From contig CADANY010000012.1 in the NCBI GenBank assembly GCA_902789395.1, forward strand, positions 1 to 64,000: a stretch of DNA of 64,000 nucleotides. Reading direction: 5' to 3'. A program made the translations under genes and the position numbers. The notes under the pieces are model-generated. The model made no database searches and was not told the origin of the DNA. It saw nothing but the letters and a program-made list of their open reading frames with translations. This stretch comes from an uncultured Bacteroidia bacterium. GTDB lineage: Bacteria > Bacteroidota > Bacteroidia > Bacteroidales > UBA932. Shown here piece by piece: positions 3,686-60,084 of the stretch; within the stretch, counting starts at the first letter, position 1, and each line of letters begins with the position of its first letter.

Positions 3686-3810
3686 GAGGAAAGGGATGTC
3701 CAGGACCCGGGAACCGTCCTTCGGACCCCTCCCGGTCTTTCGACCGGGTCCCTCCCTCTTACACGGCCGAGGGTGGCCATGGGTTTCCGGTCCTGGACAT
3801 CCCTTCCCTC
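3686..3810. repeat. Nested palindromic element, copy 1 (between eno and tsaE)
   Basis: Inverted arms of 22 bp (3686-3707 and 3789-3810, one mismatch; core AAGGGATGTCCAGGACC) enclose about 80 bp that itself folds. The inner part holds a CCGGTC/GACCGG hairpin with a four-base loop and a GTCC-TTC-GGAC hairpin. Read on the minus strand, the inner core is homologous to copy 2 at 51604-51722: both carry CCACCCTCGGC, then TAAGAGGGAGGG, then GGGAGGGG followed by CCG. The outer arms of the two copies differ completely. The right arm overlaps two bases of the tsaE stop codon. No coding capacity is apparent. Confidence 0.85.
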
Positions 3811-4234
3811 AGTCCTCCCAGGTCAGGAGGCGGGATTCGTCGGGAAGAACGGAAATATGGACCCGGAGAGTCTCTTCCGGAAGAATATCTTCAATATTTT
3901 CGGGCCATTCCATCAAGCACAGCGCTCCGCTGTCGATGTAGTCGTAAAAACCGATGTCGAGCGCCTCTGAAATTTTTTCGATCCGATAGAAGTCAAAATG
4001 GAAGACGGGTTCGCCGGAGGCCGTCCGATATTCATTGACAATGGCAAAAGTCGGAGAACTGACAGCGTCCTCCCTGACACCCAGCGCTTTGCAGACGGCG
4101 GTTGTGAAGGTCGTCTTGCCGGCTCCCATCGGAGCGTAGAAGGCGATCAAGGAATGGTCTCCGATTTCACGGAGAAATTCACCTGCCGCCCGGTCGAGGT
4201 CTTCAAGGCTTGGGATTGCGATTTGATGGACCAT
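3809..4234 (-). CDS. tsaE: tRNA threonylcarbamoyladenosine biosynthesis ATPase TsaE
   Basis: A 141-residue P-loop ATPase that works with TsaB, TsaD and TsaC to make the t6A modification at position 37 of ANN-decoding tRNAs. The Walker A motif GAGKTTFTTAV lies near residue 38, followed by SSPTFAIVNEY, HFDFYRIE and CLMEWPENI, all typical of the family. Length is normal. The stop codon (3809-3811) overlaps the right arm of the palindromic element, so that element may have set the present C-terminus. The gene diverges from the transporter gene; TATTTTTG on the minus strand (4263-4270) is a candidate -7 box. Confidence 0.95.
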   Translation of the reverse strand: MVHQIAIPSLEDLDRAAGEFLREIGDHSLIAFYAPMGAGKTTFTTAVCKALGVREDAVSSPTFAIVNEYRTASGEPVFHFDFYRIEKISEALDIGFYDYIDSGALCLMEWPENIEDILPEETLRVHISVLPDESRLLTWED

Positions 4235-42580: not shown

Positions 42581-42593
42581 TGATTGTTAGTGG

Positions 42594-42630
42594 TCTGGAT
42601 GACTGGACTTGAACCAGCGACCTCCTGGTC
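42594..42630. repeat. Direct repeat within tRNA-Pro (att-like, right)
   Basis: The 37 bases of the tRNA-Pro 3' half that are repeated exactly at 33460-33496 in the same orientation. Confidence 0.9.
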
Positions 42631-42666
42631 CCTAACCAGGTGCGCTACCAACTGCGCCACATCCAG
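42594..42666 (-). tRNA. tRNA-Pro (anticodon AGG)
   Basis: A 73-base cloverleaf: acceptor CTGGATG/CATCCAG, D stem GCGC/GCGC, anticodon stem CCTGG/CCAGG with loop TTAGGGA, variable AGGTC, T stem GCTGG/CCAGT, discriminator A. G35-G36, C1:G72 and A73 are bacterial proline identity elements. The loop reads A at position 34, which is unusual for bacterial tRNA-Pro (GGG or UGG are usual). CCA is not encoded. Its 3' half is duplicated at 33460-33496. Confidence 0.92.
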
Positions 42667-42761
42667 AAACGCTTCCGTTCGGAAGAGGACTGCAAATGTA
42701 TACATTATTTTGCATAAAAACAATTTTAATTTTAAATTTGCAATCCGTTTTCGGGTTTTAT

Positions 42762-42834
42762 CGGGGTGTGGCGCAGTTGGTAGCGCACCTGGTTTGGGAC
42801 CAGGGGGTCCCGTGTTCGAGTCACGGTACCCCGA
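42762..42834 (+). tRNA. tRNA-Pro (anticodon TGG)
   Basis: A 73-base cloverleaf: acceptor CGGGGTG/TACCCCG, D stem GCGC/GCGC, anticodon stem CCTGG/CCAGG with loop TTTGGGA, T stem CCGTG/CACGG, discriminator A. It shares the D and anticodon arms with the neighbouring tRNA-Pro(AGG) but differs in acceptor and T arms. CCA is not encoded. Confidence 0.95.
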
Positions 42835-42847
42835 CTTTAATGAGTGA

Positions 42848-51603: not shown

Positions 51604-51722
51604 TTTCCGAAGCAGGATTCCCCTCCTGAAACCTATGCCACCCTCGGCACTATAAGAGGGAGGGGCCCCTTGGGGAGGGGCCGCACAGCGGCGGTTTCAG
51701 GAGGGGAATCCTGCTTCGGAAA
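51604..51722. repeat. Nested palindromic element, copy 2 (between convergent genes)
   Basis: Perfect 30-bp inverted arms (51604-51633 and 51693-51722) enclose a 59-bp core that contains a GGCCCC/GGGGCC hairpin. The core matches copy 1 (read in reverse) over about 38 bp with few differences, while the arms are unrelated in sequence. It starts 7 bp after the rhamnosidase stop and ends 8 bp before the kinase stop, so it probably also terminates both transcripts. Confidence 0.92.
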
Positions 51723-58750: not shown

Positions 58751-58996
58751 ATGGATCCGATCCGACTTCATATCCTCTCTCCCGAGGGTGAGATCCTCGA
58801 TACGACAACGGACCTTGTCGTCCTGCCGGGTACGCAGGGCCTGTTCGAGGTCCTGCAGGACCATGCTCCGCTGATTACCTCGCTTGAGGCAGGGGAGATT
58901 ACCTACCGGGACGGGGCGGAGCGGAAAGCCGTAGCGATCCGGTCAGGCTTTGTCGAAGTGCGGGATAACCGGGTGGATGTCTGTGCCGAACTATGA
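58751..58996 (+). CDS. atpC: F-type ATP synthase epsilon subunit (short form)
   Basis: An 81-residue epsilon subunit (LHILSPEGEILDTTTDLVVL, then HAPLITSLEAGEITY). It contains only the N-terminal beta-sandwich; the two C-terminal helices that inhibit ATP hydrolysis in about 135-residue versions are missing, as in other Bacteroidota. It starts three bases after atpD and overlaps atpB by ATGA. Confidence 0.93.
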   Translation: MDPIRLHILSPEGEILDTTTDLVVLPGTQGLFEVLQDHAPLITSLEAGEITYRDGAERKAVAIRSGFVEVRDNRVDVCAEL

Positions 58997-60084
58997 TCAG
59001 AGTGCTCCTCATATCGGTTCTGATGCTCCTCCAGGCACTGTCCGTTCCGGAAGGGGATTCCCTCTCTTCCGCGTCGCTTCGCGACCCTGTACGGGCAAAT
59101 GCTCCAGAGAGGGAATCCCCTTCCGGAACGGAGGCTGAAGGGAATGACCTGAACGTTGCCGAAATCATCTTCGACCATATCGGCGATGACTATGAGTGGC
59201 ATATCGCCTCCTGGGGAGACCGGCACCTCATCCTGCACCTTCCCGTGATCGTCCACAGCTCAACTGGCTGGCACGTCTTTTCATCCCGTCATCTGGAGAA
59301 CGGCGCCTCATGGGAAGGCCTGAAGATTGATCCTGAAAAAGGAAAGATCATTGAAGCGGACAGCGGAAAGCGGCCTTTCGACATTTCGATAACCAAGAAC
59401 GTCCTGGCCTTGATGTTCAGCTGCCTGCTCCTTCTGGCCGTCGTTCTCTGTACGGCACGCTGGTACCGTAGGCACGACGTCCTGAAAGAGACTCCGACGG
59501 GAATTGCCGCCTTGATGGAACCGCTGATCATGATGGTCCACAATATGGCCCGCGAAAATATCGGCGAAGAGGATTACCGGAAGTTCTCGCCCTACCTGTG
59601 CATGGCCTTCCTTTTCATCCTTTTCAACAACTTCCTCGGCATTGTCCCGTTTTTCCCCGGCGGGGCCAACCTGACGGGAAATATCGCGGTCACTCTCGTC
59701 CTGGCGCTTTTTACGTTCTTTACAGTCAATATCTTCGGAACGAAGCATTATTATAAAGAGATATTCGCCCCGGACGTCCCGGGTTTCCTCAAACCGATCA
59801 TGCCGGTCATCGAAGTGTTCAGTGCGATGATGAAACCCGTCTCCCTGACGATCCGTCTTTTTGCGAACATGCTTGCCGGCCATATCATGATCCTCAGCAT
59901 CGTCTGCGTGATTTTCATCATGGCCAAGTACGGGGCCGTCATGCTGGGTTCCATGAGTGTGATTTCGGTGCTCTTCGGCGTTTTCCTGGATGCGCTGGAG
60001 TGCCTCGTCGCCTTTATCCAGGCGTATGTATTTACCATGCTGTCCTCGATTTATATCGGGCTGGCCAGACAAAAAGGAGATTAA
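58993..60084 (+). CDS. atpB: F-type ATP synthase subunit a, with an in-frame palindrome-encoded insert
   Basis: A 363-residue membrane subunit that forms the proton half-channels with the c ring. A signal-like segment (IRVLLISVLMLLQALS) is followed by residues ~17-47 encoded by the palindromic element at 59041-59132 (PEGDSLSSASLRDP and ERESPSGTE). Then comes the N-terminal part typical of Bacteroidota (EIIFDHIGDDYEWHIASWGD, STGWHVFSSRHLENG) and the membrane helices. The essential Arg lies in SLTIRLFANMLAGHIM. The core appears intact, so the insert seems tolerated in the periplasmic N-terminal extension. Confidence 0.93.
   Translation: MIRVLLISVLMLLQALSVPEGDSLSSASLRDPVRANAPERESPSGTEAEGNDLNVAEIIFDHIGDDYEWHIASWGDRHLILHLPVIVHSSTGWHVFSSRHLENGASWEGLKIDPEKGKIIEADSGKRPFDISITKNVLALMFSCLLLLAVVLCTARWYRRHDVLKETPTGIAALMEPLIMMVHNMARENIGEEDYRKFSPYLCMAFLFILFNNFLGIVPFFPGGANLTGNIAVTLVLALFTFFTVNIFGTKHYYKEIFAPDVPGFLKPIMPVIEVFSAMMKPVSLTIRLFANMLAGHIMILSIVCVIFIMAKYGAVMLGSMSVISVLFGVFLDALECLVAFIQAYVFTMLSSIYIGLARQKGD
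59041..59132. repeat. Palindromic element, copy 3, inside atpB
   Basis: Perfect 27-bp inverted arms (59041-59067 and 59106-59132) enclose 38 bp holding a GTCGC-TTC-GCGAC hairpin. The arms share GGATTCCC-TC with copy 2; the core resembles copies 1 and 2 only loosely (CGTACAGGGTCG next to a GAA-loop hairpin). It is read through in frame by atpB. Confidence 0.88.

Follow-up and report, generated by a model that had tools for sequence, protein, structure and literature searches.

The insert in atpB of this uncultured Bacteroidales bacterium probably belongs (roughly three chances in four) to a family of selfish elements, short and palindromic, that is housed chiefly in protein-coding sequence and tolerated by the proteins that carry it. 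What the sequences display is a set of dispersed copies, in-frame gain of length, a preferred codon phase, paired arms private to each copy, compensated arm changes and inversion of the core. No description of a palindrome family with this 38-nt core was found in the literature, subscription journals lying largely outside the scope of that search, and the family is apparently undescribed.

In the window, that is, the whole stretch of 64,000 nucleotides analysed here, atpB encodes subunit a of ATP synthase (363 aa; ORF at 58993-60084, plus strand; Pfam ATP-synt_A in the orthologue L138), and the gene has matches in 51 of 61 genomes of the genus. The ORF wholly contains an inverted repeat at 59041-59132 on the same strand, as the preliminary description had proposed, in which a left arm of 27 nt (59041-59067) and a right arm of 27 nt (59106-59132), its exact reverse complement with 100% complementarity, enclose the conserved 38-nt core TCCGCGTCGCTTCGCGACCCTGTACGGGCAAATGCTCC (59068-59105). 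The core is open in all six frames and encodes SASLRDPVRANAP in phase 0, in which a codon begins exactly where the core begins. Within it lies a small hairpin, GTCGC-TTC-GCGAC (59073-59085, plus strand), and 16 of 75 copies support it by a double change from C-G to T-A. The palindrome is predicted to fold very stably, both as RNA (MFE -68.2 kcal/mol, z -9.8) and as DNA (-38.9, z -9.4), with none of 200 shuffled sequences equalling it in either case.

The start codon of atpB, ATG at 58993, overlaps the stop codon of atpC (ATGA), and its assignment, judged from the sequence, is secure. The palindrome adds about 30 codons and keeps the frame, giving the inserted peptide VPEGDSLSSASLRDPVRANAPERESPSGTE (59044-59133, plus strand) between a signal-like helix (residues 2-16) and the conserved domain. 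A reading of the sequence found no in-frame ATG, GTG or TTG after the palindrome and ahead of the conserved FDHIGDDYEWH, and the element is therefore translated if AtpB is made from ATG 58993. In the AlphaFold model, residues 17-53, which follow the signal-like helix, have a pLDDT of about 32-37, and the inserted peptide is predicted to be disordered.

Homologue searches showed that the insert is not confined to atpB. In a tblastn search of 60 genus genomes with AtpB, long, unrelated ORFs proved to contain the inserted peptide; used as a query by itself, this peptide gave more than 150 matches, spread over 36 of 300 genus genomes. When the copies are aligned, the 38-nt core is common to all of them, and the arms, about 20 bp long, are specific to each copy and complementary within it; the consensus unit measures 78 bp, or 26 codons, with the conserved core between perfect inverted arms. 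Two frame-blind searches were added, as intact frames are favoured when the query is a peptide. The exact-core DNA pattern, with one genome per species, gave 98 stretches, and the records listed for its matches were all uncultured Bacteroidales or Bacteroidia MAGs, many of them from ruminants by name; the same pattern had no match in viral contigs. A covariance model was positive in 57 of 200 genus genomes, most of the genomes compared being MAGs, and beyond the genus a few diverged copies turned up in just three genomes, all of the same family. A diverged subfamily with the core CTGCGCTTCGCGCCCTGTACGGGTAAATG (L226, L227 and other copies of the G090 type) has at least 22 copies in G090. The AtpB linker does differ among members of the genus in both length and sequence, as would be expected if ordinary drift had made it palindromic by accident, but one and the same core is present at 51 different sites, most of them in genes that are unrelated, and the fold has a z near -10. 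The dispersed family refutes drift, whose probability we regard as practically nil.

These copies reside almost entirely in coding sequence. Among usable exact-core copies, 77 of 78 were inside ORFs longer than 150 aa, as were 59 of the 60 fetched covariance-model copies for ORFs of at least 150 aa. Since random stretches already fall inside such ORFs in 92% of cases, the coding enrichment of the element is real but modest, and codon phase is the stronger signal. Phase 0 was found in 96 of 108 copies, with the core in either orientation, in an assignment that favours phase 0 where ORF lengths are close. The exceptions include the L108/L169/L137 group, which reads in another phase, and another copy from the same genome as the window (C2:214075), which has imperfect arms and lies in the phase that encodes cysteine. 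The consensus element has stop codons in none of the six frames, and its phase 0 peptide, EGDTLSSASLRDPVRANAPERVSPS (EGDTLSGAFARTGSRSDAEERVSPS when the core is turned round), is hydrophilic and free of cysteine in both core orientations, unlike that of phase 1. The phase 0 hosts confirmed by Pfam are housekeeping proteins and comprise AtpB, AtpG, MetRS, CysRS, LigA, PolA, DnaG, DnaX, RsmH, FabD and FabF, as well as a Mur ligase, LpxK, TruA, TruB and others. These host genes are unrelated, and the position of the element within them varies.

Relative to near-empty sites, the net gain is 66 nt in A2M, 66 nt in MetRS and about 72 nt in MurE. These values bear on whether the segment might be skipped, by ribosomes that hop over it or by its removal from the mRNA, leaving the protein unchanged. 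Perfect hairpins in essential genes do recall the bypassing inserts of mitochondria, but the gains are multiples of three, the two halves of the gene share one frame, and neither the six-frame absence of stops in the core nor the preferred phase would be needed for bypassing or excision, which makes such skipping highly improbable.

In the AlphaFold model of AtpG, the insert is placed in a loop of low confidence that connects a strand to the C-terminal helix. The insertion positions in AtpB and AtpG are variable loops that hold other repeat-like peptides in other relatives, and, from sequence, both look like insertion hot spots. Such peptides, of the VILSESEES, RFAQDD and VIPGxTR types, lie in the AtpB linker of L041, L043, L044, L064, L067 and L147 and in the AtpG loop of L349 and L350, and in L147 one of them directly adjoins an element with the 38-nt core. 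Separately, in a FabD-like acyltransferase gene (L142:600-950), a degraded core-like sequence, TTCGCTTTGCGACCCTGTACGGCC, adjoins a copy of the element, which suggests a tandem or nested insertion.

Although every arm position varies between copies, the arms remain complementary. When 75 copies were aligned without gaps, the share of paired arm cells was 97.1%, against 75.3% when shuffled and at most 50.9% when slid, and double changes were present at all 20 arm pairs (483 cells vs 123 expected). Between orthologous copies, compensated, one-sided and both-sides-unpaired arm changes numbered 38, 9 and 0 at 85-90% flank identity, 69, 17 and 1 at 80-85%, and 146, 29 and 14 at 75-80%, and at 90% or more there were 17 compensated changes vs 13 one-sided ones; pair and group counts of this kind, those on core orientation included, are phylogenetically non-independent. 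The trend with divergence fits a one-sided change that is then corrected. Outward growth of the stem over flanking host DNA was clearly directional in only 2 of 18 comparisons.

Strong covariation of the arms, together with the very strong predicted RNA fold, is also what a functional mRNA structure (a regulatory hairpin, an attenuator or a stability element) would show if selected for RNA base pairing. An mRNA hairpin kept by selection, however, would be expected to show more G.U than A.C, and the mismatched arm cells on the mRNA strand comprise 31 G.U and 41 A.C, beside 1996 Watson-Crick cells. Because G.U is no commoner than A.C, pairing appears to be kept at the DNA level. The core is, moreover, transcribed in both orientations, the host genes are unrelated and the position within them differs, and Rfam 15 has no family at gathering score, the only hits being sub-threshold miRNA models of the kind that any perfect hairpin gives. 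We therefore regard a role as mRNA structure as very unlikely. The preliminary description had also suggested that the hairpin might affect translation between atpC and atpB; the base-pair counts speak against the mRNA hairpin being under selection.

The core itself changes orientation. Both orientations were found at 14 of 26 shared sites, where assembly could choose the orientation within a mixed population yet would not create differences in the arms, and seven pairs with opposite cores, at five sites, are identical at 26 or more of 28 arm positions. One of these seven is the AtpB of the window's genome (G000) and of its sister species (G281; support 1.0). At the AtpB position, seven loci carry the element, with arms that differ among them and are nevertheless palindromic, rather than one conserved peptide whose palindrome decays. 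They are interleaved with element-free relatives, which the preliminary description had thought worth seeking along with a target-site duplication; the relatives exist, and no such duplication was identifiable. This patchiness within one clade would mean repeated gain or loss. Invertible segments are common in Bacteroidales, and the differing orientation at shared sites could accordingly point to a site-specific invertase that reads the arms or the core, as in phase variation. The arms vary by site, though, and so offer no constant recombination site, and inversion alone does not explain compensated changes in them; a recombinase-driven segment is on the whole unlikely, rather less so if the core is what the enzyme reads.

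Because the copies are dispersed, the element is probably mobile. Comparison of the genus genomes revealed neither a mobilising enzyme nor a fresh insertion between near-identical strains, and no target-site duplication could be identified at the near-empty sites, which are too diverged to fix the insertion points. An ordinary MITE or REP moved by a RAYT/Y1 transposase would agree with the occurrence of Y1_Tnp domains in 53 of 57 element-positive vs 90 of 143 element-negative genus genomes. Against it, two genomes rich in the element, G139 with 13 copies and G165 with 16, have no Y1_Tnp match; of 19 Y1 genes examined, not one has the 38-nt core at its flanks, and several have short hairpins of their own; and the copies of the element are intragenic, with terminal arms that lack the conservation expected of TIRs. 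The association is statistical only and fails on the two copy-rich genomes and on the gene flanks, so a Y1/RAYT transposase was rejected as the mobiliser, and an ordinary MITE or REP of this kind is decidedly unlikely. As an observation apart, the Y1_Tnp (RAYT-like) proteins at L314-L333, of about 300 aa, are often flanked by their own matching short hairpins, which are specific to each gene, resembling REPtrons in Bacteroidales.

Returning to the selfish palindrome, we propose that replication template switching at the hairpin keeps the arms identical and flips the core. Template switching homogenises the arms of inverted repeats, inverts spacers and extends stems (PMC8604942; PMC8794818), and one process could therefore cover both arm identity and core flipping. 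The inserted peptide would be translated and retained as a disordered tail in AtpB or a surface loop in AtpG, and its stop-free, hydrophilic and cysteine-free character may make such a loop or tail tolerable to essential proteins. New copies would arise through a transposition process and may persist as nearly harmless passengers, as a deletion must be exact to preserve the frame. With somewhat less than even confidence, we would go further and regard the element as a DNA parasite that dwells in proteins: stop-free in six frames, harmless in one phase whichever way the core lies, and maintaining its own palindrome by template switching, it would rewrite the inserted peptide in essential enzymes, the core giving one of two peptides and the arms giving changing ones, with no part played by selection on the host protein.

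A second palindrome family is present in the window. Its copy at 51604-51722, which is intergenic, has perfect copy-specific arms around a core of about 76 nt, and a diverged copy of the same type (3686-3810, minus strand) adjoins the end of the minus-strand gene at 3809-4234. The window's genome holds about 25 relatives (including L006-L025), mostly intergenic and with stop codons in the core, and at least two copies, L024 and L025, are in frame inside ORFs, the host gene of L025 looking like ribF. The preliminary description had thought the 51604 and atpB elements probably of one family by the arm motif GGATTCCC-TC. The same architecture is indeed shared, but the core of the 51604 element is different and longer, and the motif sits in copy-specific arms. 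As arms vary in both families, kinship by this motif was rejected; within the window, GGATTCCC-TC with at most one mismatch matches 12 times vs 11.6 expected, as by chance. The two cores have only a GTCGCGAAGCGAC-type hairpin in common, and the 51604 element would be at most a distant cousin of that in atpB. One further inverted repeat of the window, at 42593-42835, has arms of 75 nt each, 81% complementary and 93 nt apart.

The family provides a separate bacterial case beside Rickettsia, in gut Bacteroidales and in core genes of replication, translation and energy, with copies and species enough to follow the evolution of an element. It offers a natural test of why perfect hairpins persist in coding DNA, through RNA selection or replication template switching, and also of how proteins gain new disordered loops. 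Annotators should be warned that repeated peptides in Bacteroidales genomes that look spurious may be real parts of enzymes.

Rickettsia is the best-known case of in-frame palindromic insertion into proteins, and the likeness to Rickettsia palindromic elements (RPEs) that the preliminary description had drawn for the atpB copy holds for the family: both are short palindromic DNA inserted in frame into many unrelated protein-coding genes, with an added peptide of tens of residues. RPEs are reported to be about 150 bp long, with nearly half in ORFs (PMC10969869), whereas the Bacteroidales consensus unit is 78 bp and nearly all copies are in ORFs. Repeat identity in RPEs is reported to be lost over time, the palindromes decaying after insertion (PMC6649704), while the Bacteroidales arms stay perfect by paired changes and the core flips. 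Compared by descriptions rather than by sequence, the Bacteroidales element appears to work like RPEs, yet we do not file it among them. In the mitochondria of Nematomorpha, perfect inverted repeats likewise lie inside coding genes, and template switching has been proposed for the identity of their arms (PMC6649704); there the arms encode conserved protein, whereas the Bacteroidales element is a dispersed conserved core that acts as an added peptide.

REPs, whether GTAG- or CGTC-tagged, are also dispersed palindromes, but with a short conserved stem-loop and a largely extragenic habitat, in contrast to the 77 of 78 and 59 of 60 copies in ORFs found here. CGTC REPs, for which no transposase is known and of which two types correspond to RPE-4 and RPE-6 (PMC3733652), have stems of 8-9 bp, loops of 4-5 nt and a terminal unpaired tag, whereas the Bacteroidales stems are variable, measure about 20 bp and enclose a conserved 38-nt centre. 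GTAG REPs go with RAYT genes that have cognate hairpins, whereas the 38-nt core flanks 0 of 19 Y1_Tnp genes. MITEs are similar in being small, non-coding, mobile-looking repeats with inverted ends, but the Bacteroidales element lacks a terminal inverted repeat that is conserved, and its near-empty sites, diverged as they are, showed no target-site duplication. It is thus neither a REP nor a MITE as these are defined. Template-switch mutations at inverted repeats homogenise arms, extend stems and invert spacers (PMC8604942, PMC8794818). Paired arm changes free of an RNA-type G.U bias and spacer inversion at a fixed site were both found here, and outward stem extension was clear in two comparisons; those mutations are single events, whereas in Bacteroidales the signature is seen over and over among the copies of a dispersed family.
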